Below, one piece after another: positions 8,611 through 24,666 of a stretch of DNA of 25,694 bases. Origin of the DNA: a virus. Location: IMG/VR virus record IMGVR_UViG_3300020465_000088, positions 1-25,694 of that record; one strand, written 5' to 3'. Under the pieces are notes generated by a model, which saw nothing but the letters and a program-made list of their open reading frames with translations, searched no databases and was not told the DNA's origin. The stretch's first letter is position 1; each line of letters starts with the position of its first letter. A program made the translations under genes and the position numbers.

Positions 8611-8634
8611 GTTTTATAATCCCTTTTGTTGTAG

Positions 8635-8642
8635 ATATTTAT
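8635..8642 (-). promoter_or_regulatory. Candidate T4-type late promoter
   Basis: ATAAATAT on the minus strand (context GATAAATATC) lies about 25 bases upstream of the 516-residue fibre gene, in the 60-base gap after the preceding fibre gene. Confidence 0.6.
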
Positions 8643-8670
8643 CGTTAATTCTATAAACCTAATGTAATTA

Positions 8671-10215
8671 TTATATGTCTATTGCTATACGTTGGAGTTT
8701 GAACACAATGCTATTATCGGTAATGTTGGTTACCTTGACTTGTACATCGTCACCACTTACTCCAACCGAGTAGGTTGATAGACCCGTTGCGTAATCACTG
8801 ACTGAACCAAACGTTGTGATGTAAGCGTCTGTTCCATCGTGGGTCACGTTTGCCTCTATAAATTCGTATCTGCTGTTTGAGGCGTCTGTGGCTGATATGA
8901 AGTATTTTGCACTTCTGTAAACTGTTTTATCGAATGTGTTAAGCACACTGGTCGCCGAGCTGGCCACTGTTGTGGCGGCATCTGCAATGTCTGAATTATT
9001 TAAAGTGGCTCCAGCAGTGGCAAATGAAAGCACTCCAAGACCGTTAGTGGTAATAAACTTGCCCGCCGAGTCGTCTGCAGTTGGGAAAGTGAAACCACTA
9101 ATCCTAACTCCACCTGTTCCGCTACCTTTCAACTCTAGATTGGCGTTTGATGCATTGGTTGAAACTGTGTTGTCTGATATGGTCACTCCGTCGATGGTTA
9201 AACTTTCTGTCGTTGCCAATGTCGTGAACGTTCCTGCCGCCGGCGTTGCTCCACCGATCACTGTGCCATCGATGGCACCGCCACCTATGTCTACATCATC
9301 GATAACAACATTTCCACTTCCATTGCCTGATATCTCAAGATTGGCATCGGAGGCGTTTGTTGAGATTGTGTTGTCCTTGATTCTGACAGCATCAACATCC
9401 AGTTGACCTGTGATAGTTTCTGTGCCCGTTACATCAACATTTCCAACAGTGGTAACTGCCGCTGTTGTAAGTCCTGAGGTAACTTCCACAGTGCCCGAAC
9501 CACTGGCAGATAATTGCAAGTTTGAATTCGAGGCGGTGGCTTTGATTATGTTGTCAGTGATGTTTATGTTTGAGTCAACCGTTAAATTTGAAATAATTAC
9601 ACTTCCTGAGCCTCCTGGAGTTAGATTAAGATCAGCGTTTGAACTTGTTCCAATGATGTTGTCATTGAATGTTAAATTGTCGATTGTTACTGTTCCTGCC
9701 AAACTGGTTGTGCTGGTAACAGTCAAAGTTGAGAGGGTAGTTAATCCTGACGGTACTGCCAACGTTGAACTTAGGGTTGTAGCACCAGATAATGTTGATA
9801 TCCCTGAAACGTTCAAGGTTCCGTCAACTATTAGTCCGTCGTTGATGTTGATTGTTGTGGAATCATCTGAACTTAAAGAGGTTCCTTTTATTTTGATTGC
9901 CCCAAACACAACAGAACCTGTTCCGCTAGGTAATAGATTGATGTCATCATTGGACCTAGTGCCTTCGATGTTGTTGTCGTTTATCCTTATGGCAGGAAAT
10001 GTAATCGCACCAGTGCCGGCTGGTTTGAAAACAATGTCATCATTTGATCTTGTGGCACTTATTTCGTTACCGGTAAACGAAAGTGAATCTACTGTGATAC
10101 CAGGAGCAGAGTAAACCTCTGTGAAATTTTCATTCACTTTGATCATTGCGGCACGTAAATTATCGCCTGTTCCGTCGTTCGCGTTTGATCCTATGTTTAG
10201 TGTCTGTTGTGCCAT
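8671..10215 (-). CDS. Tail-fibre-like protein, 514 residues
   Basis: The product opens MAQQTLNIGSNANDGTGD with NENFTEVY at about 28-35, the shared fibre N terminus. Residues about 45-370 are beta repeats of the SNANLEL/SGTG type. Residues 176-333 align without gaps to residues 173-330 of the upstream giant fibre and are very similar even at DNA level. The last ~95 residues (from LNTFDKTVYRSAKYF) are a single copy of the module that is repeated about ten times in that giant fibre. The ATG follows the stop of the giant fibre by one base, so the two are co-transcribed and translationally coupled. It may be a shorter paralogue or a distal fibre subunit. Confidence 0.84.
   Translation of the reverse strand: MAQQTLNIGSNANDGTGDNLRAAMIKVNENFTEVYSAPGITVDSLSFTGNEISATRSNDDIVFKPAGTGAITFPAIRINDNNIEGTRSNDDINLLPSGTGSVVFGAIKIKGTSLSSDDSTTININDGLIVDGTLNVSGISTLSGATTLSSTLAVPSGLTTLSTLTVTSTTSLAGTVTIDNLTFNDNIIGTSSNADLNLTPGGSGSVIISNLTVDSNINITDNIIKATASNSNLQLSASGSGTVEVTSGLTTAAVTTVGNVDVTGTETITGQLDVDAVRIKDNTISTNASDANLEISGNGSGNVVIDDVDIGGGAIDGTVIGGATPAAGTFTTLATTESLTIDGVTISDNTVSTNASNANLELKGSGTGGVRISGFTFPTADDSAGKFITTNGLGVLSFATAGATLNNSDIADAATTVASSATSVLNTFDKTVYRSAKYFISATDASNSRYEFIEANVTHDGTDAYITTFGSVSDYATGLSTYSVGVSGDDVQVKVTNITDNSIVFKLQRIAIDI
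9217..9690 (-). repeat. Fibre cassette copy A, paralogous to 14063-14536
   Basis: These 158 codons match 158 codons of the adjacent giant fibre gene without any gap. Both begin at the TIDNLTFNDNIIGTSSNADL block and end after GGxTPAAGT. Several stretches of 20 or more bases are identical, for example around TTTGAACTTGTTCCAATGAT on the plus strand. Confidence 0.8.
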
Positions 10216-10216
10216 G

Positions 10217-13200
10217 TTAAACTTTCATTGTCCTTTTAACCACTGTAACCGTGTGTGTGTTAGTATTACTTATCGTGCCTCTTAATCTCACATCGTCACC
10301 ACTTATGTCTGCAGTGAATTCCACTAGATCGCTAGTATGGTTGGTTGCCCTACCAAAAGTGGACAAATACACATTTGTGCCGTCGTGCATCACATTGACG
10401 TCCAGTGTTTCGTAAAGTCCAAGTGCGCCACTGCCTGGGTCACTGATCGATACATGGTATTTGGCACTTCTAAATTCGGTCTTGTCAAATGTGTCAAGTG
10501 TGGCCACAGAACTAGGTGCCCCGGCCAACCTTGTAAGATGTACCCTGTACATGTTCACAGTGGTGTCTGTGTTTTGCAGACTGTTCTCTGCTCTCAATTC
10601 CACGTTACTGCCGTTGTGTGCAACTGTGAAATTCATCAATGGCGTGGTGGTCGAATGTGTGCTTATGTTTGCACCTTCCTGTAAGATATATGGTGCTGTG
10701 CCGTCAGACACAACCATTAGTTCTGCTATCTGAGATTGACTGGCCGCATTTTTTCCTACAACGATATAGTTTGCCAACTGGACTCCCGAGTGTCCAAATG
10801 TGTCAATCACATCATATAGGAATGCATCATCTACCTTCATGTGGATCCTAAATGCGTTGACAGTGGTACTGCCACCTGCAGTGGATGCCGCACTCAGGGT
10901 AACTGTGTTTGAACCATCGTGTGCCGCTGAAAGAGTCAACATTGGTGTTGCTTTTGATGATACATGGTTAGCATGTGACACAAAGGCTTCCGCACCGTTG
11001 GTGACCAAGGTCGCTTCTTGTATCTCTGCTGTGCCTTCCGAGGCGTTCCTGGCAACAATAACATAATGGGCACCTGTATGACTTGTATCCTGTAAGGTAT
11101 CTATTGCAGTTGCCGAACTTGATACTGTCACTGTATCACAAAGTTTACTGTCGGCACCTTCGGCATTAGACTCACTGTCTGATAATCTGATACGATAGAA
11201 TTTTATTTTGACGTCTGCTGTCGACGGAGTGGCAAGCAATCTAAGATTGGTCCCACTGATGTCTGCAGTCAAGGTGATTAGACTGTTATGGCTATTGTGT
11301 TCGTTAAAAGATGAAATGTAGGCATCAGTGCCATCATGCACAACCAGGCATTCTATGTTAGACATGTGGCCGTTGATAGTGTCGTCCGCGGAAATGTAAT
11401 ACTTGGCACCTCTGTAATCAGCGTGTGCCCAACTGTCTAGCGTTGTTGTGTTGTCCGCAGGTGCTTTTAATCTTACTGCATAAGCACTGACTGCCGTTGA
11501 AGCACCTGACGTTGAACTTGCTTTGACACTTACCGTACCTCCCGAAATAGTGGCAGTAAGTTCCAACATATCTGTACCTTTAGTGCTGACATTCGGACCT
11601 TGTGATACAAAAACGTTTGTTCCGTCTGTCACCACAGTGGCCTCACAAATAAATTTTTCATCTGAACCGTTCTGTCCACAAACAACGTAATGTACAGCAT
11701 CGGTGTCACTAGATTGGAAACTGTCAAAAGTTGTTGCTGTACTAGATGTCGTGACATTTCCTATAACTTTCCTTGTGCTGTCAGTGGTTGCCTCGTCTGA
11801 CTCTGTATCAGCGAATGCTACTATCCTGTTGACAATAACTTTTGTACTGGCACCTGACGTTGCAGAACCTCTCAACCTCACACTGTTAGAATCTATATCT
11901 GCCGTCAACGTGATTAGGCTGTTGTTGCCTGAGAAGTGCTCGTTGTATGACGTGATGTATGCATTAGTATTGTCGTGCGTGATTAAGCACTCTATGTTGC
12001 TGGTTTCGCCTGTTGATTGATTTCTTACATTTATAAAATATTTTGCCGCGGCGTGTGGAGCCTTTGTAAACGTATCAAGGTTAACGACACTGCTGTCAAT
12101 TATGTCAACATGCATGATGTCATGGACCAAACCCAACTCGCCCACGTATCCTGTGGAGTCATCGTCACCAATTCCTATTCTGTAGTACCCCATGGTGTTT
12201 GATGGTGTGACAGATGAACCATCACTGTCTGTCATTCTTAATCTTATTTTGGATGCACTGTCATCTGCTGTGACCATGTCGGCATCAAATGTTGGATGAG
12301 TGTCACCCACATCTGTTCTAGTGACTGCTGATGATGTAAGGAAAGCGTTATTGAAATTGTGTAGAAGAGAAATTTTTTGTGTTTCAAAACTGCCGTTGGC
12401 CACGTCCTTGGTCACGACATGGTACAAGGCGCCGTTGAATTGACTCGCTGTGAATTCTGCCCCTGTTCTTTCTGCGGCAACACTTCCTTGCAAGGTTCCT
12501 TCTGCTATGACATGATCTATTACTGTTTCATTGTTACCTCCCGCGGTAACACCCGCGTGTGTGCCTATTTTTCCTGTTGTTCCAGTTGTTGTGTTTGGCC
12601 CAAGTCCTATTGCATAATATTTTAAAGAGTTTTGTATTGTTGTTGACCCATCGCTCTGACCAGTCGCTTTCAATTCTACATTGGATCCGTTGATGCCAAC
12701 GTCAAAGGCACTGATGTCATTCATCGCACCTGATTTTACGATATGACTGTCTGTGACACCTGCCACTTCTGTGCTTCCGTCTGCACTTATGCCATGATTG
12801 ACACTCAACTTGTTCATTATGAATTCGTTGTTCGTCATGTCCTTCTGCACCATGTGATAGAAAACACTATCGAAATCCGCTTTTGCCCATGTATTGATCA
12901 CTTTCTGTGAGCTCATGTCTGGACTTGCTGTTCCCCTGAAACTGTTGGTGTTAATTGTTGTGGATGCCGTGTTGCTGACTGTCTGTGCACCGATGATTTT
13001 TTCAAGGCTATTAATTGTTGAGTCAGATTCATTGTCTGCCAACAGTATCCTGTACATTGTAACTCTACAAGTTCCAGCGGTACCGTTAGCACCTCGTAGT
13101 CTCACATCACTTCCGCTTATGTCTGCTGTGAATGTTGCCAGTGGAGTGTTTCCTGAATTCGTAGAAATAATGTTGTAGTCTTGGATAAATGCATCAGAAC

Positions 13201-15052
13201 CATTATGAACTATAAGCAGTTCAGCATTCATCACTTCATTTGTGGTCGTGTTGTTAACTGACACATAATATTTTGCACCTCTGTAACTTGCATGAGCAAA
13301 GGTGTCAAGGTTTGCCACTGCACTGTCAAGGTCTGCTGTGACCTTTGTGGCCACGTTGCCGTCTGTATATCCGGATGAGTCATTATCTCCCAATCCCAAT
13401 CTAAAAAATGTCAATGCGTTGAATGTTGATTTGGTTGATCCATCTGCCAGTGTGCCTGCCTGTCCTTTGAATCTTACCTTGGCTACTGCACTCCTTATAT
13501 CACTAGATGTGGCGATTATCTCATCGTTGTTATTTGTTTTGATGATCTGTGATGTGCCATCGAAAGCATCAAATGTGCTACCATCCGTTGTTCCTTGTGC
13601 AATGGTTGTTTTGAATCCTGCAAACTCAATAGAACTGTCAGCGGCGTCATATCTCTGCAAACAAAGATACCATGCACTGTCATATTTTGTTTGATCAAAT
13701 TGATCTAAAACACTGTCACTGCCGGCGCCTATGTTCTCGTGTGCACCAGTGGCCGTGTTTGCATCTAATTCTGTTATGCTGGAAAATCCGATTGTGTTCC
13801 TTGCGTCTTGTATGTCTGACTGCCCAAGCAATAATGGAGCAGTGAACCACGCCAACTGACCGTTTCCGTCTGTCCTCAATAGTTGTCCTGTGTTTCCATC
13901 CGAGTTGGGCAAGTTAATGCCCCCAGTGATCAAGTTACCGTTGATGTTCACATATCCCGATCCGTTGGCGTTGAATTCGATATTGTCATTTGATCTATTT
14001 GCAGTAATAACGTTATCCGTGATTGTGACCCCGTCTGCTGTGATTGAAGGAGTTGTAATAGAAATGGTAGTTAATGTCCCCGCCGCTGGTGTAGTTCCAC
14101 CTATGACTACATTGTCAATAGCACCTCCGCCTATGTCCACGTCGTCGATAACGACATTTCCACTTCCATTGCCTGATACTTCAAGGTTGGCGTTTGAGGC
14201 GTTTGTTGAGATTGTGTTGTCCTTTATGGTCACACCTTCCACATCTATTTGTCCGGTCACTGTCTTTGTTCCAGTGATGTCAACGTTGCCTGTTGTAGTT
14301 ACGGCGGCCGTTGTAAGTCCGGATATGATTTCCACACTTCCGGAACCACTTGGCGACAGCACCAGATTGTCATCGGATCTTGTGACCTTTATAACGTTAT
14401 CGGTCAAATTAACGCTGGAGTCAATTGTTAGATTGGAAACGTTAACCACACCCGTTCCGCCTGGAGTTAGATTTAGATCAGCGTTTGAACTTGTTCCAAT
14501 GATGTTGTCATTAAAAGTGAGGTTATCTATTGTGGTAGTCCCCGCTAATGACGAGGCACCTGAAACAGTCAATGTCGAAAGCGTCGTGGTGCTAGAAACA
14601 TCTAAGGTGGATCCCAAGTTTACAGCACTGCTGAAAGTCGGAGTGTCGGCATTCAGTGTTCCGTCCACAATTAGGTTTTCATTTACATTAATTGTCGAGG
14701 AGTCTGTGGCTACCAATGAAGTTCCTGAAAATCCCACGCCATCTACAACAACCTTACCAGATCCACTGGGTATAATTTTTAGATCATCGTTTGATCTAGT
14801 CAGTTTGATGTTGTTATCTTCGAAAGTGAGAGCAGGGAATACCACGTTTCCTGTTCCCGAAGGCTTGAGCACTATGTTGGCATTAGAAGATTTGGTTACA
14901 ATGTTATTTTGCTCAAACTTTATATCAGCCGAAACAACCGGAAACGCATAAAGTTCTGTAAAGTTTTCGTTGATCTTACGGCCGGCATTCCTGATAGTAT
15001 CACCTGATCCATCATTTGCCTGTGCCCCTATATCGATTATTTTCTGCGCCAT
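10217..15052 (-). CDS. Giant modular tail-fibre/adhesin protein, 1611 residues
   Basis: The N terminus MAQKIIDIGAQANDGSGD with NENFTELY at 28-35 is the shared fibre anchor. Residues about 50-370 form a shaft of short SNANLVL/SGSG beta repeats. Residues about 370-445 are a linker (NSDGNTGQLLRTDGNGQLAW is typical of phage fibre joints). Residues 447-1611 are about ten degenerate copies of a ~95-residue beta module, each starting like LDTFxxxxYRxAKYYVS and ending like VRLRG......YRI. No ribosome binding site is evident. The sequence CTAAATAT lies 6 bases upstream of the ATG, unusually close for a promoter. The length and modularity suggest a long receptor-binding fibre. Confidence 0.85.
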   Translation of the reverse strand: MAQKIIDIGAQANDGSGDTIRNAGRKINENFTELYAFPVVSADIKFEQNNIVTKSSNANIVLKPSGTGNVVFPALTFEDNNIKLTRSNDDLKIIPSGSGKVVVDGVGFSGTSLVATDSSTINVNENLIVDGTLNADTPTFSSAVNLGSTLDVSSTTTLSTLTVSGASSLAGTTTIDNLTFNDNIIGTSSNADLNLTPGGTGVVNVSNLTIDSSVNLTDNVIKVTRSDDNLVLSPSGSGSVEIISGLTTAAVTTTGNVDITGTKTVTGQIDVEGVTIKDNTISTNASNANLEVSGNGSGNVVIDDVDIGGGAIDNVVIGGTTPAAGTLTTISITTPSITADGVTITDNVITANRSNDNIEFNANGSGYVNINGNLITGGINLPNSDGNTGQLLRTDGNGQLAWFTAPLLLGQSDIQDARNTIGFSSITELDANTATGAHENIGAGSDSVLDQFDQTKYDSAWYLCLQRYDAADSSIEFAGFKTTIAQGTTDGSTFDAFDGTSQIIKTNNNDEIIATSSDIRSAVAKVRFKGQAGTLADGSTKSTFNALTFFRLGLGDNDSSGYTDGNVATKVTADLDSAVANLDTFAHASYRGAKYYVSVNNTTTNEVMNAELLIVHNGSDAFIQDYNIISTNSGNTPLATFTADISGSDVRLRGANGTAGTCRVTMYRILLADNESDSTINSLEKIIGAQTVSNTASTTINTNSFRGTASPDMSSQKVINTWAKADFDSVFYHMVQKDMTNNEFIMNKLSVNHGISADGSTEVAGVTDSHIVKSGAMNDISAFDVGINGSNVELKATGQSDGSTTIQNSLKYYAIGLGPNTTTGTTGKIGTHAGVTAGGNNETVIDHVIAEGTLQGSVAAERTGAEFTASQFNGALYHVVTKDVANGSFETQKISLLHNFNNAFLTSSAVTRTDVGDTHPTFDADMVTADDSASKIRLRMTDSDGSSVTPSNTMGYYRIGIGDDDSTGYVGELGLVHDIMHVDIIDSSVVNLDTFTKAPHAAAKYFINVRNQSTGETSNIECLITHDNTNAYITSYNEHFSGNNSLITLTADIDSNSVRLRGSATSGASTKVIVNRIVAFADTESDEATTDSTRKVIGNVTTSSTATTFDSFQSSDTDAVHYVVCGQNGSDEKFICEATVVTDGTNVFVSQGPNVSTKGTDMLELTATISGGTVSVKASSTSGASTAVSAYAVRLKAPADNTTTLDSWAHADYRGAKYYISADDTINGHMSNIECLVVHDGTDAYISSFNEHNSHNSLITLTADISGTNLRLLATPSTADVKIKFYRIRLSDSESNAEGADSKLCDTVTVSSSATAIDTLQDTSHTGAHYVIVARNASEGTAEIQEATLVTNGAEAFVSHANHVSSKATPMLTLSAAHDGSNTVTLSAASTAGGSTTVNAFRIHMKVDDAFLYDVIDTFGHSGVQLANYIVVGKNAASQSQIAELMVVSDGTAPYILQEGANISTHSTTTPLMNFTVAHNGSNVELRAENSLQNTDTTVNMYRVHLTRLAGAPSSVATLDTFDKTEFRSAKYHVSISDPGSGALGLYETLDVNVMHDGTNVYLSTFGRATNHTSDLVEFTADISGDDVRLRGTISNTNTHTVTVVKRTMKV
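10220..13714 (-). repeat. Array of about ten ~95-residue beta modules in the giant fibre
   Basis: Module starts fall near residues 447, 579, 717, 868, 990, 1107, 1203, 1316, 1414 and 1517 of the fibre. The recurring pattern is a hydrophobic-Asp-[ST/Q]-[FWL] start, an aromatic AKYY.S strand, ECL..HDGT.AYIS..NE, an ITLTADISG..VRLRG strand, and a closing YRI or VRL strand. Copies near residues 579, 990 and 1203 are most alike, and others have diverged. The single module at the end of the neighbouring 514-residue fibre belongs to the same family. Confidence 0.82.
14063..14536 (-). repeat. Fibre cassette copy B, paralogous to 9217-9690
   Basis: Residues 173-330 of the giant fibre are collinear and gap-free with residues 176-333 of the 514-residue fibre. 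Conservation is high at DNA level in patches, with local divergence between them. Confidence 0.8.
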
Positions 15053-15058
15053 TTACTA

Positions 15059-15066
15059 ATATTTAG
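15059..15066 (-). promoter_or_regulatory. Weak late-promoter-like octamer
   Basis: CTAAATAT on the minus strand lies only 6 bases upstream of the giant fibre ATG, in the 42-base gap after the preceding fibre gene. The position would give an almost leaderless transcript, so this is a weak candidate. Confidence 0.3.
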
Positions 15067-15094
15067 CGGTTTTTACGATTTGATTAAACGGCTA

Positions 15095-16519
15095 TTAACC
15101 CGTGCTTATTTTGACGTCATTTCCTGATCTAAACAGTCTGCCGGCTACTCCCGGGTCAGAAGTTGGAAGGCTAGTAAAATCTATCTGTGAGCCATCTGCC
15201 GCAAGGTTTCCTGTAACTGAAACACCATTTGCAGTTGTTTCAAACTTTTTACTATTATCATGATAAAGTTCAACTGCCCCATCGGCAATACCCTTCACCA
15301 TGGTTTCTGAACTACTATCCTTACCAAGTATCACATTGTTGTCACTCTGAATGTAAAGGCTTCCGGTTCCTGTTTCTCGTATTATTGAATGACTTCCATT
15401 GTGGAATATCTTTAGGTCATCGGCATCACCAATCCCTAGATAGTTGTCAGTGACACTACCATCGGGTAGTGTTAAAATGCCTGAGACTTTTGCTCCTGTT
15501 CCTGTTACTCTAAATGCTTCTGCCAAGCCACCCGCCACTGTGAACGTCTGGAATATCAATTCGTTTGCTGAGCCACTGGTGCCGTCGAACAAGATCTTTG
15601 CTCCTGATGTGTCGGCCTGCCCTATGAAGTCTATGCCAGGAACGTTGGCGTTGTCTGTTCTTTGGATTTTGACAAACGGTGTTGCTCCTTTTACAAGTAG
15701 ACTACTAGACATCTCAACCTCACCTGTACCATTTGCAGATATTTCTAAATTATCGTTAGATCTTAATGTTGTAATTTTGTTCTCAGCCATGCTGATGGTA
15801 GCATCACCCAAAGTTGAATCACTGTCATCCATGATATTAAAAGTTCCTGTGACACTTGCTCCGCTACGTGTAACTCTGAATCTTTCGTCTGTACTTGAAT
15901 CATCTCTTACTTTAAAAATAATTTCTTTGTTAATACCGTTGGTGCCTTCCATGTATATCTTGGCTCTGACGTCACCGCCGGCACTTTGGAAATCAATACC
16001 TGGTGTGTTTGCATCACTTGTTCTCTGGAGTGTTATGACCGACGAGGCCGATTTGATGTGTAATTTTGTGTCTGGCGCATTTACAGTACCAATACCAACC
16101 TGTCCATCGTTGTCAATGATCAAGTCACCTGTACCTTCCGTCTTAAGCCTCAAGTTTGCGTTTGACCCATTAGATGTAATTTGATTGGTAACTATTTCCG
16201 TTGCCGTGACCGGACCTCCCAACACCACACCGCCTGTGCCGTTTCCAAGTATTGTGATGTCCGCATTGGTGTCAAGCGAAGTAATGGTAGTGTTGTTTAT
16301 TGATAATCTGTCTATCTCAACAATACCCGTTCCGTTTGCAAATATTTTTACATCACCGTTCGTGTCTGAATTTGTTAGATTACCGTTTGATGATGTTGTA
16401 GCGGCCAAATCCGTGTATAATTCAGAAAAGTTCTCGTTCGATTTGGTCATAGCGGTACGTAAGGTATCGCCTGTTGCTGGATTTCCCAGTGATCCTGTGT
16501 CTATTATTTTTCTAGCCAT
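15095..16519 (-). CDS. Tail-fibre-like protein, 474 residues
   Basis: The N terminus MARKIIDTGSLGNPATGD with NENFSELYTDL is a diverged version of the fibre anchor. Shaft repeats (SNANLRL.TEGTGDL, SNDNLEISANGTGEVEM) are interleaved with two copies of a longer unit: V..QRT.DAN.PGIDF, then AKI...GT.G..ELIF, then FRVTG.GA.V.G, at about residues 165-235 and 280-350. A third region (YLGIGDADDLKIFHNGSHS, then FETTANGVSVTGNLAADGS) is a motif widely seen in marine phage fibres and structural proteins. A late-promoter octamer lies 12 bases upstream. It is the most 5' gene of the fibre cluster and the only one with this unit. Confidence 0.83.
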   Translation of the reverse strand: MARKIIDTGSLGNPATGDTLRTAMTKSNENFSELYTDLAATTSSNGNLTNSDTNGDVKIFANGTGIVEIDRLSINNTTITSLDTNADITILGNGTGGVVLGGPVTATEIVTNQITSNGSNANLRLKTEGTGDLIIDNDGQVGIGTVNAPDTKLHIKSASSVITLQRTSDANTPGIDFQSAGGDVRAKIYMEGTNGINKEIIFKVRDDSSTDERFRVTRSGASVTGTFNIMDDSDSTLGDATISMAENKITTLRSNDNLEISANGTGEVEMSSSLLVKGATPFVKIQRTDNANVPGIDFIGQADTSGAKILFDGTSGSANELIFQTFTVAGGLAEAFRVTGTGAKVSGILTLPDGSVTDNYLGIGDADDLKIFHNGSHSIIRETGTGSLYIQSDNNVILGKDSSSETMVKGIADGAVELYHDNSKKFETTANGVSVTGNLAADGSQIDFTSLPTSDPGVAGRLFRSGNDVKISTG

Positions 16520-16550: not shown

Positions 16551-16829
16551 ATGTTCATAGAAACCCTAAAAACAATGAAGTTGTACAAGAGGGAGAGCAA
16601 ACTGGGTACAATGCACAATTATCATAGGAAGAACCTTATCTATGTGTTCAAATGCGATGCCTGTTCGGAGACTTTCATGAGGCCCAAGAGCAAGGTAGAT
16701 CCAGCTCGTGCTTCAAATGACTACAAACACGTATGCAATGATTGTGATTCAAAGAAATTCGCACAGGCTGTGGGTGTAAAGATGCGTAAGGTCTATAAAC
16801 TTGACGCAAGTAGCACTAAGACTCTATAG
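16551..16829 (+). CDS. Small CxxC/CxxC zinc-finger-like protein, lone plus-strand gene
   Basis: This is the only convincing plus-strand gene. From the ATG at 16551 it encodes 92 residues with KCDACSETF (Cys 35 and 38) and VCNDCDSKKF (Cys 62 and 65), a likely four-cysteine zinc site, in a Lys/Arg-rich protein. A segment between the cysteine pairs (MRPKSKVDPARASNDYKH) is basic. In-frame ATGs at 16575 and 16611 are possible alternative starts, and no clear ribosome binding site distinguishes them. Its stop overlaps the stop of the convergent minus-strand gene within the palindrome CTATAG. DNA binding, a regulatory role, or a degenerate HNH-like nuclease are all possible; no His/Asn catalytic motif is obvious. 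Confidence 0.7.
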   Translation: MFIETLKTMKLYKRESKLGTMHNYHRKNLIYVFKCDACSETFMRPKSKVDPARASNDYKHVCNDCDSKKFAQAVGVKMRKVYKLDASSTKTL

Positions 16830-17567
16830 TGCTTTCCATTTGATGTCATCACGATGGCCAGTTATCCATCTCTGTAGGTCAGCGTAGATGCCACACTTTA
16901 TATTTGGTTGATCAAAGTACCATTTGAGAAAAGGATTTCCTTCCAGGTACTCTTTCCTGTTTATAAAACGAAAATTCGTTTTTGGGAATCTACGGATAGT
17001 CTGTCTCAGTTGATACATCCATTCATATTTCAGATATGCTTTCATGCTCTCACGACCAGGGTAGTTTATGGAATTTTTATAAATGTTGTTCTGTATCCTG
17101 CTGGGGGTTTCCATTTCCCACTGCTGGGCTCCCATTATGTCGAATGCCATTATCACAACATTTTCAATGCCTGACTCTGCCGCCAGCAACACCGCAGAAC
17201 AACCAGATCCTTTTGCAACAGAGAAATCATTGGTCTTGATCTTGCCACCCTTTTTTACGTCACCACCTCTCCATATTCTGTAAATTTTAAGACCAGTGGG
17301 CACATCGTTGATGTTATCTCCATCACAGATATAGTTCCAATCACTTATGTCATCCAACCCGTGTATCTGTGGAGACTCCTTTCCATTGTTGTGCCATGTT
17401 GCCAGTTCCTCATACATTGGAGGATTCACAGCCACAATGTGATCGCACAACATTGGATGATCTCGGTATATGGCGTTGCAACCATATATCACACCTTTGC
17501 CTTTTAAATTTTCTATTGGAAATATGTTTCTCGACTCACCGTTACCTATTATGAAAGCAGTGTCCAT
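16824..17567 (-). CDS. GNGESR protein, GT42/DUF115-like putative glycosyltransferase (copy 1)
   Basis: The 247-residue protein starts MDTAFIIGNGESR. The nucleotide-binding-like GNGESR (8-13), GCNAIYRD (about 29-36), KGSGCSAVLLAAESG and VVIMAFDIMG follow the order seen in sialyltransferases of family GT42 and in DUF115/Maf proteins (GNGPS, CN.FY, S/TG..A...G, G.D). The frame extends 10 codons upstream of the chosen start, but the ATG at 17567 overlaps the stop of the Fe-S carrier gene by one base (TAATG), which makes it the natural start. A paralogue lies at 23261-23902. The fold assignment is an inference from motif order; sugar donor and acceptor are unknown. Confidence 0.68.
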   Translation of the reverse strand: MDTAFIIGNGESRNIFPIENLKGKGVIYGCNAIYRDHPMLCDHIVAVNPPMYEELATWHNNGKESPQIHGLDDISDWNYICDGDNINDVPTGLKIYRIWRGGDVKKGGKIKTNDFSVAKGSGCSAVLLAAESGIENVVIMAFDIMGAQQWEMETPSRIQNNIYKNSINYPGRESMKAYLKYEWMYQLRQTIRRFPKTNFRFINRKEYLEGNPFLKWYFDQPNIKCGIYADLQRWITGHRDDIKWKAL

Positions 17568-17902
17568 TACACCCCAAATGATTCTCCACAACCACAACCG
17601 GAAGATGCGTTAGGATTTGTTATCTCAAATTGTGAACCAAACACTTCCTCTTTCCAGTCTATCTTTGTGCCTGCAACATAAAGCATACTTGCGTCATCAA
17701 CAACAAATTTACCTGTCTGCCAATCCTCTGTATGATCGTCTGCACTAACATCTTCCTTTTTATCTATGAATCCCCACTTGTATTTGAACCCTGCACAGCC
17801 ACCGCCTTCAACCATTAGGCTGACAGCATATTTGTCTGGTTGTTTTGCCAACAATTTCTCCATTTGATTCTTTGCTTCTTCTGTTATTTCAAACCATTTC
17901 AT
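17567..17902 (-). CDS. A-type iron-sulfur carrier (IscA/ErpA/HesB family)
   Basis: Starting at the ATG at 17902, the 111-residue protein begins MKWFEITEEAKNQM and has the three family cysteines: GGGCAGF (Cys 36) and GCGCG (Cys 103 and 105), almost exactly the spacing of E. coli IscA. The frame is open 18 codons further upstream, but that would overlap the previous gene and add a non-homologous extension. A-type carriers bind a 2Fe-2S or 4Fe-4S cluster and deliver it to apo-enzymes. Homologues are known in marine phages. Its placement in an operon with a radical SAM enzyme suggests it matures that enzyme. Confidence 0.9.
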   Translation of the reverse strand: MKWFEITEEAKNQMEKLLAKQPDKYAVSLMVEGGGCAGFKYKWGFIDKKEDVSADDHTEDWQTGKFVVDDASMLYVAGTKIDWKEEVFGSQFEITNPNASSGCGCGESFGV

Positions 17903-17913
17903 ACTATTAATTA

Positions 17914-18237
17914 TCAACTTCTCTCCCCCATGTTTTGCAAACCTATTGCCAACCAAAAACGGGTGGCATCTCTTTTATATTGAAAACTCATGTAACTGTT
18001 CTGGTCCTCCCAATGGTTCTGTGGGTTTTCTATGTTTCCTGCAGGTTTGAACCACCAACCCCAATTTCCTTGGCAGTTGATCTGACACCACTCTATGCAC
18101 TCACCCATGATTCCATTGGAGTTCATATCTATGTTATACCGGAATTTCTTTTCGTAACCGCAGTCGGATCCAATTTCATCCAGTCCGGGACTGATTCTTT
18201 TGATCTCCGCCGCTTCGTAGAATTTCTTTTTACCCAT
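17914..18237 (-). CDS. Cys/Trp-rich hypothetical protein
   Basis: This 107-residue protein is unrecognised. It has cysteines at 26, 47, 51 and 55 (ECIEWCQINCQ, a CxxxCxxxC spacing) followed by GNWGWWFKP and a C-terminal NHWEDQNSYMSF, then RDATRFWLAIGL. The aromatic and cysteine content suggests a small metal- or cluster-binding or redox protein. The start overlaps the end of the dehydrogenase gene by 8 bases, and the Fe-S carrier begins 11 bases after its stop, so it is co-translated with both. Confidence 0.72.
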   Translation of the reverse strand: MGKKKFYEAAEIKRISPGLDEIGSDCGYEKKFRYNIDMNSNGIMGECIEWCQINCQGNWGWWFKPAGNIENPQNHWEDQNSYMSFQYKRDATRFWLAIGLQNMGERS

Positions 18238-18811
18238 GATCGTAATTTAATCCCAATGTAATTTGGTCAATCTGTGTGTTATCTTTTACTGCAAGGCAGT
18301 ATGTTATAAAATTTACTATATCAACACAGTTCACGCCGTTTCCGGTCCAGTTTGCCCTGGATCGAGATAGCTCGGTATCGAGTCTGTCTGGTTTAATAAG
18401 TGTTGTTCGGAAGCTCACATTGTTTTTCCTGAATGCCCTACTGCATTGTAGACTTGCAGATTCCAAACTTTTCTTTGCCACCCTGTATGTCTCCCACATC
18501 GGATCGGGAGAAACAACATCATCACTCGCAATACTACCTATGTTGAATATGAATCCTGTTTTATTTTTCTGTTTCCATGCATCAAACATTTTTAATAACA
18601 ATAAAGTTTGTCCGAAGTTAGCATGATCCTCTTGTGGTGGCCCATCAAAAGCGTTATTGACAAACACATCGTACTCGAGGCTTTTACTTACTATTTTGTC
18701 CACATCTTTTGTTATGTCGAACCCGTTCTCGCGGCTTATAGAATCTGCCCCAAGATTTTTCACGATCGTTTCACCAAGACCTCTGTTTCCGCCTGTGACT
18801 AAAATTTTCAT
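18230..18811 (-). CDS. Short-chain dehydrogenase/reductase (SDR)
   Basis: The ATG at 18811 overlaps the stop of the radical SAM gene (ATGA) and has GGGGGAAG upstream; 20 further upstream codons are open but non-homologous. The product is a compact 193-residue SDR. It has the TGGNRGLG cofactor loop (6-13), NNAF where SDRs have NNAG, FNIGSIAS for the catalytic serine region, and YRVAK as the YxxxK catalytic pair. Classical SDRs are about 250 residues, so this is a shortened form. It should use NAD(P)H to reduce or oxidise a carbonyl or sugar-nucleotide; the substrate is unknown. Confidence 0.88.
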   Translation of the reverse strand: MKILVTGGNRGLGETIVKNLGADSISRENGFDITKDVDKIVSKSLEYDVFVNNAFDGPPQEDHANFGQTLLLLKMFDAWKQKNKTGFIFNIGSIASDDVVSPDPMWETYRVAKKSLESASLQCSRAFRKNNVSFRTTLIKPDRLDTELSRSRANWTGNGVNCVDIVNFITYCLAVKDNTQIDQITLGLNYDHG

Positions 18812-19944
18812 CTTACACTTCCCCCTTGATCCCAACATTTGGTGAAAGTCTGTCCACACGTAAATGCACATTCAAATAGTCTGCCCTCTTTGAAATCTTT
18901 TTTGCTCCAGGAACTCTGTAAGTCCTTCCAGAATCGGTTTTCAAATATTTCGATCATTGTTTTATTTTGTATCTTAAGATTATCTTTTCCATATTTGTCA
19001 TACATTTCTATAATTTGATTATTATACATTTTTTTACCCAGCGGGTCAAATGATCCAGGGTGCGTATCTTCGTGGAATCTAGCATCGTATAGGTTGTGTT
19101 CAAAGAAATTACACGGCATTACTATTCCCTCCGCTGTGATTACCACTTTATTTCCTAGAAGTGCATCACACGTGATTTCAGTTTGTTTGAAATAATCAAT
19201 CAAGGAGCCATATTTCTTTTTTATCTCATCCACCCTGCTTACACTGTCGTTCCTGTATTGTGGATCGATCGGCATTTCCAGATGCCTGATAGTCTGTCCC
19301 ATGCTATTCTTCACAGGCCATTTCTGCATTGGTTCTAATTTCTTTTGATCAAAAAATCTTCCTGTTTTTCTAACCAAGCAGTCAAGAAACCCATATTCTT
19401 TGGCTAATGCTTTCACTGTGTCTATTTGATGTTCGTTATGCTTGAAAACAATAAAGTTCCATTTTGCTTTGCCTCCTGCATTTATAAAGTCCCTAGCATT
19501 TTGTATTGCGTGTTCGTACTTGACTCCAACTCTATAAAGATGATTCGTATCTTCTAATCCATCTATCCCAAAATCTATCTGTCCATAACCGTTCATGATT
19601 TTTGCTATCTCTTGCCAGAACCCTTCCTTACGTTTGGCTCCGTTGGTGTGTATGTATAACCACAGGTCATGCTTCTGTGATCTAAACCATTCCAGTATTT
19701 CTAGTAATTTTGGGTGTACTGACGGATCTCCATAACTGCCACAGAAAAAAATCTGTTTGCATCTATCCAATATTTCCTTAGTAAAGGCTTTCTTAATCCA
19801 CTCTATGTCCATGTCCGCCAGTGGCATGTGTGGATTTACCTTGCCGCCATTTATGTTTCTCGGACATTGTGGACAGGCCGCATTACATCTTGTGGTTATC
19901 TCCAGTTGCCATTCTGTAATCTGATCAAGGCTAAAATTTATCAT
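18808..19944 (-). CDS. Radical SAM protein with SPASM-like C-terminal cysteines
   Basis: The 378-residue protein starts MINFSLDQITEWQLEITTRC. The cluster-binding motif CNAACPQC (Cys 20, 24, 27; CxxxCxxC) is followed by GSYGDPSVHP, a GxxGEP-like SAM-binding motif, and LWLYIHTNGA. C-terminal cysteines in ITCDALLG, VMPCNFFEH and CAFTCGQTFTKC suggest auxiliary Fe-S ligands as in SPASM/twitch enzymes. Its ATG overlaps the glycosyltransferase stop (ATGA), and its stop overlaps the dehydrogenase start. It is too long and too cysteine-rich to be the queuosine enzyme QueE. The reaction is unknown, but a modification of a sugar, peptide or base is likely. Confidence 0.88.
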   Translation of the reverse strand: MINFSLDQITEWQLEITTRCNAACPQCPRNINGGKVNPHMPLADMDIEWIKKAFTKEILDRCKQIFFCGSYGDPSVHPKLLEILEWFRSQKHDLWLYIHTNGAKRKEGFWQEIAKIMNGYGQIDFGIDGLEDTNHLYRVGVKYEHAIQNARDFINAGGKAKWNFIVFKHNEHQIDTVKALAKEYGFLDCLVRKTGRFFDQKKLEPMQKWPVKNSMGQTIRHLEMPIDPQYRNDSVSRVDEIKKKYGSLIDYFKQTEITCDALLGNKVVITAEGIVMPCNFFEHNLYDARFHEDTHPGSFDPLGKKMYNNQIIEMYDKYGKDNLKIQNKTMIEIFENRFWKDLQSSWSKKDFKEGRLFECAFTCGQTFTKCWDQGGSVR

Positions 19945-20645
19945 TGCCAGTTATCTTCCACAAACTTGTCTGCACATTCCATTGGATTAGGCTTCCCATG
20001 GAAAACAGCAACCTTGTTGCCTTCCTGAATTTTTGTAGGAGTTTTGAAGAAACATTTTCCATCCTTCGTTAGGAGTTTAGTATCTTTTAGTCCAATCATT
20101 TCCCATTTGTAACTTCTAATCCATGCATCGGGCCAATGATTGATGTCTTCTTTTGCCCTACTGGTTATCCAATCTTGATCTCCGTGGTTCTGTGACATTA
20201 TCCTGTTGGCGTCTTTCTCGAAGTCATTCCAAAGGTAGTCCATCTTGCCTGTCTGCCATCGCATACAACTGGAATTCGAGTGTGTCCAATTTTCTACCCT
20301 GCATCGATTGAAGTCTCTGATTATCATGAACTTCCCAGGATTGTGAGTGAACAATGAATCAATGTTATCGAAAATCACAACGTCTAGATCAAAAAACAGT
20401 ATGTTTCCTTGCAGAGGCATCTTCGGAGAGAACATCCAAAGTTTGCTCCACCATGTTTTTATTATAGGACTTTTTGGCAGTTTGATCACATTGACTGCTG
20501 GATCCAATCCTGTGGCATCATCGGTAATACAATGGAACTGGAACGGAACCTTTGTGTGTCTCTTGACCATGTTATTGAGCACGTTTGCGTATTTTGAAAC
20601 ATATTTGTCGCCCCACTTAACGCACACCACGTGATTTGTATCCAC
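19941..20645 (-). CDS. Glycosyltransferase-like protein (GT-A fold, DxD)
   Basis: The protein has VVCVKWGDKYV near the N terminus, WWSKLWMFSP, then ILFFDLDVV with the metal-binding DxD, GDQDW further on, and VAVFHGKP near the C terminus. This matches the GT8-like arrangement of a nucleotide-sugar glycosyltransferase. A GTG at 20645 is preferred as start because AAGGA lies 7 bases upstream and the first residues then abut the domain. An ATG at 20681 would add 12 residues and a 65-base overlap with the upstream gene. Donor and acceptor cannot be read; host surface glycan or a virion protein is plausible. Confidence 0.8.
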   Translation of the reverse strand: MDTNHVVCVKWGDKYVSKYANVLNNMVKRHTKVPFQFHCITDDATGLDPAVNVIKLPKSPIIKTWWSKLWMFSPKMPLQGNILFFDLDVVIFDNIDSLFTHNPGKFMIIRDFNRCRVENWTHSNSSCMRWQTGKMDYLWNDFEKDANRIMSQNHGDQDWITSRAKEDINHWPDAWIRSYKWEMIGLKDTKLLTKDGKCFFKTPTKIQEGNKVAVFHGKPNPMECADKFVEDNWQ

Positions 20646-21798
20646 TTTTAAGTCCTTCCATTTGTATCTGTTTCCAATCATCGCTTTCTAGCGAATATGG
20701 GTAATTGCATTCAACTTCATTTTTTGCAACAATTTTGATGTTAGTTATATTTAAATTATTGCTCAAGACATTATAAATTTCACTGAAGGATTTTCCTTTG
20801 CCGAATGTTTTGTCTAGGTCGACCTGTCCTATTTTTATATAACCTAAAGAAAGTTTGGGATCTTCCCAATCATAATTGTTTTCTTTGAGCCATGTCCTAA
20901 AGTGGTCCATTTCTTCTTTTTTGAAATCGTGTTGTTCTGTAATGGTTTGTCCCCATTCAACATCAAACTCACCTGAATAATATTTCTGATGATTAATCTC
21001 GGAACACAATGCTTCGGTCATCTTAGGTGCGTGTTCGTCTCTGAAGACTTCATACAGTGTTTTCCCAACTTGCGACCAATGTAGATATACACCACCAAGT
21101 TCTCTGTCATACCTGTTGTCTTTAAACAACTCAAAATCCTCTTCATTTAAGTTATGTCTTGGAGCGTTGAGAAAAGTTGTGATCTGTGCAGGACGCATCC
21201 ATTCAGGTTCTATGTAATTCTTCCTGTCTGAATTTACCCAGGATTCTATCTCATGACAGATATTATTCAATTGCCTGATGGCATATTTTGTTTCAAGATC
21301 AGCCTGTTTATAAAATTCTGACAGTTGCCATGCGGTGCCCTGTAGTTCCTCAAAATGTCTGTGCAAAGTATTACATGCGTCATGCTTTAGACGTTTGCCT
21401 GGTGTTTTCATCTCATCGCCGTCGACCGCTTTACCTATCGGCAGACGAGAACTGTACTGGAAATCATCCGCTGTGAATGGATGTATCTGATCGTAGGCTG
21501 GTGAAAATTCAAAAGCATTTATTATAGAGATATTCTTGTTAAGTTCGCCTACTAGGAAATTTAAATTCCTTTTGGAATCAGCAAATCCCAAGAAACAGAA
21601 GTTCTTTTCAAGTATCCTTTTTTGCTTTAGATTGTCTTTGAGTGCATCTAGCCATCTATGCCCCAACGGTGTGTCGTAGATCTGGAAGTGATAGGCCTTG
21701 TTCGTCAGGCCCACCCTTATAATATCATGTATAAATTTATTCTTTCCTGTAGATGGCACTGTTGGCTCCGTGTTCTGCACATTCCACTTCCACAACAT
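20617..21798 (-). CDS. Hypothetical protein, up to 393 residues
   Basis: I do not recognise this family. Distinctive segments are FCFLGFADSKRNLNFL, KHDACNTLHRHFEELQGTA, a helical middle, LGGVYLHWSQVGKTLYEVFRDE and YYSGEFDVEWG. His and acidic residues are frequent in the middle and could form a metal site, but no known motif fits. The start is uncertain: the ATG at 21798 overlaps the QueD-like gene by 62 bases and has no ribosome binding site, and the next clear in-frame option is a GTG about 29 codons in. Its tight packing between the QueD-like and glycosyltransferase genes suggests it is part of the same pathway. Confidence 0.72.
   Translation of the reverse strand: MLWKWNVQNTEPTVPSTGKNKFIHDIIRVGLTNKAYHFQIYDTPLGHRWLDALKDNLKQKRILEKNFCFLGFADSKRNLNFLVGELNKNISIINAFEFSPAYDQIHPFTADDFQYSSRLPIGKAVDGDEMKTPGKRLKHDACNTLHRHFEELQGTAWQLSEFYKQADLETKYAIRQLNNICHEIESWVNSDRKNYIEPEWMRPAQITTFLNAPRHNLNEEDFELFKDNRYDRELGGVYLHWSQVGKTLYEVFRDEHAPKMTEALCSEINHQKYYSGEFDVEWGQTITEQHDFKKEEMDHFRTWLKENNYDWEDPKLSLGYIKIGQVDLDKTFGKGKSFSEIYNVLSNNLNITNIKIVAKNEVECNYPYSLESDDWKQIQMEGLKSGYKSRGVR
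20653..20657 (-). promoter_or_regulatory. Ribosome binding site supporting a GTG start at 20645
   Basis: AAGGA lies 7 bases upstream of GTG 20645, inside the 3' end of the preceding gene. The alternative ATG at 20681 has no comparable site. Confidence 0.5.
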
Positions 21799-22186
21799 AA
21801 CATCTATTGTCAGTTTTCTCTCTGATCAGTTTGTCTGCAAAGTCAAATGCGTGTTTGGCAAACATCTCGGCACCTACACCATCAAATATCACAATGTCAA
21901 CAAGGTCAAGTTTCTCAAGTTCTCTAAACTTGTCGAGATGTGGATCATTTACATCTAATGCAGTTTTGTGATCAAAGTGATCTTCCAACCATTTCTTCAA
22001 CGGTTTCAATCCGCCAAAGTCGACTGCCCAATTTTTATTGTCTAGTTTGTCACATCCAAATGTAAATTTAAATTGTAAACTATATCCGTGTAGCAAATGG
22101 CAATGTGAGTGATCTGCGTTGGGTTGTCTGAACACACAGGCCAATCCTATGTTGTGTCCGTATGTTTTAGTTGAATAGTAAGTCAT
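21737..22186 (-). CDS. queD: 6-pyruvoyl-tetrahydropterin synthase / QueD-like
   Basis: The 149-residue protein has the family's His-rich zinc region (HSHCHLLHGYSLQFKFTF, about 26-43), VDFGGLKPLKKWLEDHFDHKTAL with the catalytic-type DH pair (72-73), and C-terminal VEVECAEHGANSA with the conserved glutamate region. Members convert 7,8-dihydroneopterin triphosphate to 6-carboxytetrahydropterin (queuosine/7-deazaguanine route) or to 6-pyruvoyl-tetrahydropterin. The usual LHGH zinc motif reads LHGY here, so one His ligand is absent or shifted. CAGGAG lies 5 bases upstream of the ATG. No FolE, QueE or QueC is seen in the window, so the final product is unknown. Confidence 0.85.
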   Translation of the reverse strand: MTYYSTKTYGHNIGLACVFRQPNADHSHCHLLHGYSLQFKFTFGCDKLDNKNWAVDFGGLKPLKKWLEDHFDHKTALDVNDPHLDKFRELEKLDLVDIVIFDGVGAEMFAKHAFDFADKLIREKTDNRCYVVEVECAEHGANSAIYRKE

Positions 22187-23260: not shown

Positions 23261-23902
23261 TTACTTTTTTGTCAACTGTTTGTTAACAAATTTGGCAAGT
23301 CCTTCATATGTGTCTTGAAAAACATTTTTATGCTGTTTCCACTCTTCAGGCATTTTCCAATCCGGTGCGTTTACTATGATCCATCTACAATCGGAGTGTT
23401 CAAAGAGTTTGTCAAATTGGTATATCCAGTATCTCGGATCAACCGGTCTTTTGATATAAGTGTAACCTTTTGATCCTTTGTAAATATTATTAACATTTTC
23501 AGGCTTGTTTTCCTTACCAAGTCCCCAAAGATCCATCCCTACTAAAAATATTGCTTTAGGTTTGAAGCTCATTCCTACTAATGCGGCAAACTGTCCGGTG
23601 CCCCAATGAAAAGGATCGTCTTGTCTTTTGTCTCCTTCGTATGGTAGATCCGGTACTTTCTTTACATTGGGCCAAAAAGCAAATTGTTTGTACCAATTTT
23701 CTCGAGTGTAAATTGTAGTATTTTTACCACAAGTGTTTGCCGCTTCTTGACACATATGGCGATCACATGCAACAATAACTTCTAAGTTATGATCACGGAA
23801 AATTGCATTACAACCTACTACAGTGGTAATACCTTTCAATGGTGTGATATCGAATCCACGTCTACTTTCACCGTTGCCTATTACACTTACATACTTGGTC
23901 AT
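23261..23902 (-). CDS. GNGESR protein, GT42/DUF115-like putative glycosyltransferase (copy 2)
   Basis: The 213-residue protein begins MTKYVSVIGNGESRRG and shares GNGESR, GCNAIFRDH, a GTGQFAAL segment and FLVGMDLWG with the protein at 16824-17567, in the same order. Divergence outside these motifs suggests an old duplication or separate acquisitions. An AAAGGGG stretch lies about 20 bases upstream of the ATG. The motif order resembles sialyltransferase-like and DUF115 folds, so nucleotide-sugar transfer is inferred, not shown. Confidence 0.68.
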   Translation of the reverse strand: MTKYVSVIGNGESRRGFDITPLKGITTVVGCNAIFRDHNLEVIVACDRHMCQEAANTCGKNTTIYTRENWYKQFAFWPNVKKVPDLPYEGDKRQDDPFHWGTGQFAALVGMSFKPKAIFLVGMDLWGLGKENKPENVNNIYKGSKGYTYIKRPVDPRYWIYQFDKLFEHSDCRWIIVNAPDWKMPEEWKQHKNVFQDTYEGLAKFVNKQLTKK

Positions 23903-23974: not shown

Positions 23975-24265
23975 TTATACATCTTCGTGATTTTCGTGTA
24001 TTAGATGCCATACGGTAAGGTATTTGTCCCATGCTTTTTGCAGTGTTGGATATTTTCTTCGAAGCTCAATTGCTTCTGTTCCTACCATCTCCAACTCATT
24101 GTAGGCCTGCTGATTGTCTTTGGCTTTTTGTGATTGTTCAATTAATACCTTTTCTCCATTTGGTAATTGTTGATACACTGTTTCACCTCCGTCCGGTGAA
24201 GTATAGATAGGAGCAGGTATGATCCTTTTGCTGATTTTCTTTTTCCTTTTAGTAATTTTGGCCAT
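23975..24265 (-). CDS. Small hypothetical protein with basic N terminus
   Basis: The 96-residue product starts with a very basic stretch (KITKRKKKISKRI), then a short beta segment (YTSPDGGETVYQQLPNGEKVLIEQ) and a C-terminal helix. Its ATG overlaps the stop of the HIT gene by one base. No domain is recognised. The 72-base gap after its stop contains no gene that I can support. Confidence 0.7.
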   Translation of the reverse strand: MAKITKRKKKISKRIIPAPIYTSPDGGETVYQQLPNGEKVLIEQSQKAKDNQQAYNELEMVGTEAIELRRKYPTLQKAWDKYLTVWHLIHENHEDV

Positions 24266-24666
24266 TAGTAGTGATCCCTATGATCTGCATTGGGATGAGT
24301 GTATCTCATTCCGCCTTTTGGTTCCGCATCTCCCTTATGTCTTGGAATGAAGTGTATGTGTGGCCACATGATTGTCTGGCCTGCACACGACCCCACATTC
24401 ATACCTATGTTGAAGCCATCGATCTCACCTGACTTAATTTTGTCTTTGCCAAACTGTGATGCTAGAGCATAAGATTTGCCTATGTATTCTGCGGTGTCCT
24501 TTTTGGGTATGAACAATGTGTGCCCTGGAACGCATGGATATCGGTCACGGAAGACTCCGGTATATTCTGTCTCTATGAATGGTGTATCGTTGCCCATCCA
24601 CGTGCTTTCCTCATAACTGTCTATGGGTTCATATGGCTTCTTGTAGATAGGTTTTTTTGATTGCAT
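24265..24666 (-). CDS. HIT-family nucleotide hydrolase/transferase
   Basis: The 133-residue protein shows the HIT layout: TPFIETEYTGVFRDRYPCVPGHTLFIPK (about 28-55), then GFNIGMNVGSCAGQT (84-98) and WPHIHFIPRHKGD (101-113). The histidine triad HxHxH appears as WPHIH: His 103, in the position of the catalytic His, and His 105 are present, while the first His is replaced by Trp. HIT proteins hydrolyse or transfer nucleoside phosphoramidates and related nucleotides. The ATG overlaps the upstream gene by 38 bases. The substrate is unknown. Confidence 0.85.
   Translation of the reverse strand: MQSKKPIYKKPYEPIDSYEESTWMGNDTPFIETEYTGVFRDRYPCVPGHTLFIPKKDTAEYIGKSYALASQFGKDKIKSGEIDGFNIGMNVGSCAGQTIMWPHIHFIPRHKGDAEPKGGMRYTHPNADHRDHY

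Follow-up and report, generated by a model that had tools for sequence, protein, structure and literature searches.

The closest known counterpart of the locus analyzed here is the host recognition cluster (HRC) of T4-like pelagimyophages and cyanomyophages. As described (Zaragoza-Solas et al. 2020, PMC7029224), the pelagimyophage HRC lies between VrlC and the neck gene gp14 and holds tail fibres, GT8 and other glycosyltransferases, and radical S-adenosylmethionine (SAM) cassettes. Two enzyme systems outside phages are also comparable. Maf enzymes attach glycans to flagellin ahead of its export, a precedent for cytoplasmic glycosylation of a filament protein (PMC4065374), and AprD4/AprD3 of the apramycin pathway are a radical SAM dehydratase paired with an NADPH reductase (PMC5461906). 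The present locus is an eight-gene block at positions 16824–22186, minus strand, of the viral record IMGVR_UViG_3300020465_000088. The whole stretch of 25,694 nt (25.7 kb) is referred to as the window. Its phage is classed as a T4-like myovirus because the genes downstream of the block bear T4 gp9/10-type N-termini. No match was obtained when the window was compared with 50,697 GenBank phage records in a nucleotide search.

All eight open reading frames (ORFs) of the block were found on the minus strand. In the direction of transcription they encode a QueD-like protein (21737–22186), a 393-residue protein without assigned function (U393, 20617–21798), a glycosyltransferase (GT, 19941–20681), a radical SAM enzyme (18808–19944), a short-chain dehydrogenase/reductase (SDR, 18230–18811), a 107-residue Cys/Trp-rich protein (CW, 17914–18237), an A-type Fe-S carrier of the IscA/ErpA/SufA family (IscA, 17567–17902), and a protein with the motif GNGESR (GNG8, 16824–17567). 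QueD and U393 overlap by 62 bases (21737–21798). GT may start either at ATG 20681, giving a 65-base overlap with U393, or at GTG 20645, giving 29 bases. Both the GT/radical SAM and the radical SAM/SDR junctions are ATGA, the latter with the SDR start placed at 18811 by its homologues. SDR and CW overlap by 8 bases, CW and IscA are separated by 11 bases, and IscA and GNG8 meet at TAATG. An earlier note on this DNA had described the same ORFs and junctions, and each could be read from the sequence, the 29-base overlap on the assumption of the GTG start. The T4 late promoter TATAAATA was sought in the window and not found, so that the limits of the operon are not definable by that route.

To compare the block with its relatives, the window proteins were mapped onto retrieved IMG/VR loci. 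The gene order was near-universal: exonuclease, w27, w26, w25, GNGb, w23, w22, w21, QueD, U393, GT, an exchangeable slot, CW, IscA, GNG8, and tail fibre. The six core genes (QueD, U393, GT, CW, IscA, and GNG8) were complete and ordered in 57 of the 58 contigs of sufficient length for this order to be judged, the sole exception being the distant contig L092. Where contigs extend far enough downstream, a tail-fibre gene almost always follows the block directly. For QueD, U393, the radical SAM enzyme, CW, IscA, GNG8, and GNGb, the ratio of nonsynonymous to synonymous substitution rates (dN/dS) was ~0.04–0.15, with many dS values saturated; the tested block genes are under purifying selection. The block is thus a real, compact, translationally coupled, and conserved unit. 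Its edges are arbitrary, because the upstream genes w21, w22, w23, GNGb, and exonuclease are as syntenic as the block itself. In distant phages, QueD plus U393, U393 plus IscA, or U393 alone occurs without the remaining core genes.

The variable part of the block is the slot between GT and CW. Of 92 loci, 55 have no gene in it; each of the others contains a cassette, of which at least four alternatives were seen. The window carries cassette A, consisting of the radical SAM enzyme and SDR listed above. In the second type a different radical SAM enzyme stands by itself, in the third a second kind of SDR precedes a third radical SAM enzyme in reversed order, and in the fourth a pair of 160- and 355-residue proteins without Pfam match is found, in some cases with a third gene. 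Examples of this last cassette, with the larger protein measuring 355–363 residues, lie at 2316–3841 of L018 and 8347–10863 of L106; its third gene, where present, encodes 312–335 residues with merely a weak aminotransferase hint. Where the slot is empty, GT and CW abut, as in L075 with a 4-base overlap. When slot state was placed on the U393 tree, 27 changes were required, compared with a mean of 29.7 (range 25–32) for shuffled labels; the distribution of the cassettes on the core tree is close to random. L003, the closest relative of the window, has an empty slot, and the two are sisters with strong support. In the comparison of the window with L001, dS was 0.50 for the radical SAM gene, below the values for U393 (0.78) and GNG8 (0.76). 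Together, the near-random changes, the sister pair with differing slots, and the lower dS of the radical SAM gene indicate that the slot contents turn over rapidly while the core around them stays fixed. The radical SAM/SDR pair is an exchangeable cassette that is absent from most close relatives.

These results divide the interpretation given in the earlier note, which had taken the eight genes as one unit and from their mixture suggested a biosynthetic route. The unit holds for the coupled and ordered core; it does not extend to the exchangeable pair, and its boundaries are not fixed. A single eight-gene pathway was rejected, since the cassette is missing from most loci and occurs elsewhere without the other six genes. 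Gene order in marine phages had been proposed there as one check, and independent occurrence of the genes in related phages as one kind of counterevidence. The core kept its order, while the radical SAM/SDR pair varied between close relatives and was found independently, as were, in distant phages, the partial U393 combinations described above.

The radical SAM enzyme of the window (PF04055, 2e-9) has the CX3CX2C motif and a C-terminal set of cysteines suited to an auxiliary cluster; the SPASM model gave no match to it, although the cysteines suggest the twitch/SPASM type. The three radical SAM types of the slot have in common CX3CX2C, the motif CG(S/D)xGDP, and C-terminal cysteines that could bind an auxiliary cluster. 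The SDR (adh_short, 1.1e-5) scored 25.4, slightly below the Pfam cut-off of 26.6, and has both a TGxxxGxG-type motif (GGNRGLG) and YxxxK, the latter kept in both SDR types of the slot. Outside the block, the cassette A pair recurs without the other six genes in contigs L082–L085. Full reading of two of these, L083 and L084, placed the pair among genes for an NAD-dependent epimerase, a GDP-mannose dehydratase, an FkbM methyltransferase, and a glycosyltransferase, a setting that points to sugar chemistry. The best mechanistic analogue may be AprD4/AprD3, where a radical SAM enzyme likewise stands next to an NAD(P)H-type reductase among enzymes of sugar chemistry; the auxiliary-cluster cysteines suggest a SPASM/twitch type here, unlike AprD4.

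Two kinds of glycosyltransferase-type protein flank this chemistry. GT has a D-x-D type motif (FFDLDVV), matches phrog_1962 (1.7e-21), and has relatives in Pelagibacter phage Mosig and in the PmgQ protein of P1. GNG8 gave an AlphaFold model (predicted local distance difference test, pLDDT, 77; predicted template modelling score, pTM, 0.83). Its fold matches in the VIA comparison were the Maf flagellin glycosyltransferase 5mu5 (Z 10.8) and the sialyltransferases Cst-I and Cst-II (Z 8.3–9.3), followed by thiamine pyrophosphokinase (Z 7.9); all others were at or below 6.5. A GT42 sialyltransferase matched weakly by sequence, with the GNGES and Asn motifs aligned. GNG8 thus resembles the Maf/GT42 nonulosonate glycosyltransferases in predicted fold, GNGxS motif, and Asn positions, and differs from them in being phage-encoded; it is treated as a putative, not a demonstrated, glycosyltransferase of this fold. 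Since thiamine pyrophosphokinase ranks next in the fold comparison, GNG8 may instead have a pterin or other diphosphate-transfer role, as in an MptE/pyrophosphokinase reading. No match to the GNG8 protein was found among the GenBank phages. A paralogue, GNGb (23261–23902, minus strand; phrog_30607, 1.8e-23), lies upstream, belongs to the same family by alignment, and is equally syntenic.

U393 is a well-conserved family that is probably enzymatic. At least 167 relatives were found in IMG/VR in a first search and at least 271 viral loci in a later one, with 35–85% identity over ~390 residues. In a set of 57 sequences whose identities reach as low as 35%, the residues N143, H146, F149, E150, Q153, G154, R175–N178, C181, H182, E183, and E185 are invariant. 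Most fall on a helix pair, N143-x-L-H146-x-x-F149-E150 and R175-Q-L-N-x-x-C181-H182-E183-x-E185, whose conservation suggests an active or metal site. No relatives were detected in Pfam, PHROGs, or PDB sequences, and none among the 50,697 GenBank phage records at tblastn sensitivity. Structure prediction had also been proposed in the earlier note; the U393 model was moderate (pLDDT 73, pTM 0.73), and Foldseek returned nothing significant from the PDB. A second look with VIA gave cyclophilin-like domains at Z 7–9.3, barely above the level of unrelated folds and on non-contiguous parts of the model, which appears to contain a partial cyclophilin-like barrel. BFVD matches were relatives in uncultured phages plus a weak match in Agrobacterium phage Atu_ph07, which a sequence profile did not confirm.

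The genomic setting of distant U393 proteins was also inspected. Of 46 distinct deep loci, 38 had radical-SAM-cluster genes at a distance of up to 9 kb, and 31 had a carbamoyltransferase of NodU type downstream. Large uncultured phages (L116–L178) have clusters of NodU/TobZ carbamoyltransferase and SPASM radical SAM genes in which U393 proteins of 35–51% identity have radical SAM neighbours; unlike the block, these clusters have no QueD, GT, or GNG8 and contain many more sugar-pathway genes. In L153 (2345–20798 of a 177.7-kb record) and related large contigs, U393 stands with tandem SPASM-type proteins, SGNH-like proteins, the NodU carbamoyltransferase, a kinase, an epimerase, an aminotransferase, and a protein resembling deacetylases. 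These large phages thus seem to encode a sugar pathway. A different arrangement is seen in L113 (9555–15300 of a 114.8-kb record) and similarly in L110, L112, and L115, where QueD and U393 occur with no GT or CW. Ahead of IscA these loci encode, with names given mostly by eye, a DegT aminotransferase, UvdE, an Fe/Mn-superoxide-dismutase-like protein, and an Nfu-N-like protein, a possible oxidative-stress/Fe-S set.

Of the further core proteins, IscA scored 99 bits with TIGR00049, over the cut-off, and the motifs of its three cluster cysteines were present in 81 of 81 homologues. CW has four invariant cysteines and several invariant tryptophans in the alignment and had no sequence match in Pfam, PHROG, PDB, or the GenBank phages; it is possibly a metal or Fe-S protein. 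IscA is 91–95% identical to that of the window in L024, L028, L054, L055, L075, L076, and L078, and 64–79% identical in other loci. Its neighbouring genes do not share this pattern in those seven loci, which suggests recombination within the core.

From these data, we tentatively favour, at slightly less than even confidence, a conserved module for glycan modification, carried by uncultured marine T4-like phages, that lies beside the tail fibres in the same transcription direction and has a swappable radical tailoring step. The grounds for this are the two kinds of glycosyltransferase, the adjacency of the tail fibres, and the occurrence of the slot enzymes otherwise in sugar clusters. Such a system would probably decorate a sugar structure relevant to recognition or protection of the host or the virus. 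Within the infected cell, the two glycosyltransferases would transfer sugars to a tail fibre or to a host surface polysaccharide, and U393 would catalyse a step of this sugar chemistry. IscA would load Fe-S clusters into the phage radical enzymes and perhaps CW, and the slot cassette would supply the variable tailoring step. In the window, the radical SAM enzyme might dehydrate or oxidize a sugar carbon and the SDR reduce the resulting carbonyl, following the logic of AprD4/AprD3. QueD is a candidate supplier of a pterin or 7-deazaguanine precursor together with other enzymes of the host.

Several observations weigh against the glycan module. No nucleotide-sugar synthesis genes are present in the block of the window, so either the host or another part of the genome would have to supply the donor sugar. 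A role for QueD in glycan chemistry is not evident. IscA and CW are retained in all 55 loci with an empty slot; slot enzymes alone therefore cannot account for either of them. The comparison with AprD4/AprD3 is drawn from gene pairing and not from homology. In GNG8, no conserved histidine was seen in the C-terminal half of the alignment, the region of the catalytic histidine base of Cst-II, and none of the Pfam models returned was Maf/MptE-like or GT42. For these two reasons GNG8 is called no more than Maf/GT42-like.

The comparison with the HRC shows how far the module resembles a described system. Like the HRC, it combines tail fibres, glycosyltransferases, and radical SAM cassettes that vary between close relatives in marine T4-like phages. 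The HRC is, however, described as non-syntenic, whereas here the six-gene core is strictly syntenic and just the slot is not. Selected terms searched in that paper gave no mention of U393, CW, QueD, or IscA (PMC7029224). A literature search for this gene combination found no paper describing it, in agreement with the earlier note, whose author knew of no phage pathway of such composition. The odd gene mixture can now be recast as a testable system, a fixed core with an exchangeable tailoring slot beside host-recognition genes, in an abundant, uncultured group of marine phages. The analysis also brought to light U393, which has no PHROG and an invariant H/E/C-H-E helix pair, and a putative phage family of Maf/GT42-like glycosyltransferases. 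If the glycan reading is true, it bears on host-range variation and competitor resistance of ocean phages.

The rival that survives best differs from the favoured module only in its target. Alteration of the host surface polysaccharide (O-chain) by the glycosyltransferases and cassette enzymes during infection would exclude competing phages, with the tail fibres as mere neighbours, and we regard this as rather unlikely. The same interpretation has been given for the GT8-rich clusters of pelagimyophages (PMC7029224), and the nucleotide-sugar genes around the radical SAM/SDR pair in L083 and L084 are in keeping with it. However, the strict adjacency of the tail fibres and the Maf-like fold suit a protein acceptor at least equally, given that Maf modifies a filament protein, and flippase or polymerase genes were not seen.

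A more ambitious form of the glycan module, which we consider unlikely, is modular glycan switching. A glycosylation core that stays fixed, and in which U393 would represent a new family of enzymes, would receive radical enzymes through a plug-in slot exchanged between neighbouring phages, altering the glycan identity of the tail fibre or host surface. If true, it would parallel serotype conversion on the phage side, with unusual radical-tailored sugars as its target. Similarly unlikely is a loose association, in which QueD, IscA, the glycosyltransferases, and the slot enzymes serve separate host-support tasks (queuosine or pterin supply, Fe-S repair, and surface change) and are joined merely by one late transcription unit. 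The separation of the components in distant phages and the equal synteny of unrelated flanking genes fit this proposal, and Fe-S genes have been reported among marine viral auxiliary genes (PMC8940887). Against it, the core remained complete and ordered despite constant slot exchange, and U393 was repeatedly found beside radical SAM genes even without the remaining block.

The last rival depends on QueD. This protein matches PF01242 over the cut-off (8e-15) and phrog_2389 (6e-41) as a member of the 6-pyruvoyl-tetrahydropterin/6-carboxytetrahydropterin synthase family, but misses the QueD equivalog cut-off (35.7 of 89.25 bits). Alignment with an Escherichia coli QueD sequence assigned a retained catalytic Cys29, Asp72/His73, and Glu138, with two of the three canonical zinc histidines replaced by Phe and Tyr. 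The same F/H/Y ligand set occurs in the QueDs of phages Iggy, which has the full pathway, and BUCT-ZZ01, with QueE and FolE alongside; the change is therefore a trait of a phage subfamily and not a sign of decay. The nearest QueDs (50–55%) belong to phages that mostly carry queuosine-type genes alongside. In 16 related records, mostly fragments like the other related loci, searches for FolE and DpdA found nothing, one of them being run without a positive control, and QueC gave two sub-threshold matches with none over the cut-off. QueE was not found in any of the related loci fetched. When QueE, QueC, FolE, and DpdA of Iggy and BUCT-ZZ01 were used in tblastn over 181 fetched loci, they matched just their own loci or each other. 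QueD thus appears to be an orphan, with no other 7-deazaguanine-pathway genes near any copy searched. The QueD subfamily shares active-site and ligand residues with the 7-deazaguanine DNA modification systems of phages 9g and Iggy, and the 9g enzyme is functional (PMC6884629); unlike for those systems, none of the four partner genes was found here in the related records and loci. DNA hypermodification, in which QueD would start a 7-deazaguanine base that the radical SAM enzyme and SDR modify and GT glycosylates, has these QueD relationships in its favour but is very unlikely, given that the partners were not found in these mostly fragmentary records and that 55 of 92 loci lack both slot enzymes. 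Of the products named in the earlier note (a modified glycan, nucleobase, or small molecule), the nucleobase is accordingly weakened, while the combination of glycosyltransferases with redox and radical enzymes stands.

The surroundings of the block are conserved as well. The 304-base gap after GNG8 is occupied by a small ORF on the opposite strand (16551–16829, plus strand), which lies between the block and the tail fibres and is zinc-ribbon-like, with two CxxC motifs and a weak Zn_ribbon_8 match. Its homologues in L092 and L113 keep this position and direction, also where the gene content is otherwise different. Beyond it, a gene like those of tail fibres or baseplate connectors (15095–16519, minus strand) has a gp9/10-type N-terminus (PF07880, 6e-5, slightly below the curated cut-off; phrog_677). 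It is one of four consecutive paralogous fibre/connector genes on the minus strand (7060–16519, beginning at 7060, 8671, 10217, and 15095), which share a gp9/10-like N-terminus of ~40 residues and differ in the remainder. Among the conserved upstream genes, a HIT-domain protein (PF01230) is encoded at 24265–24666 on the minus strand. Near the end of the window, a GroES/gp31-like co-chaperonin is encoded at 1449–1892, also on the minus strand.

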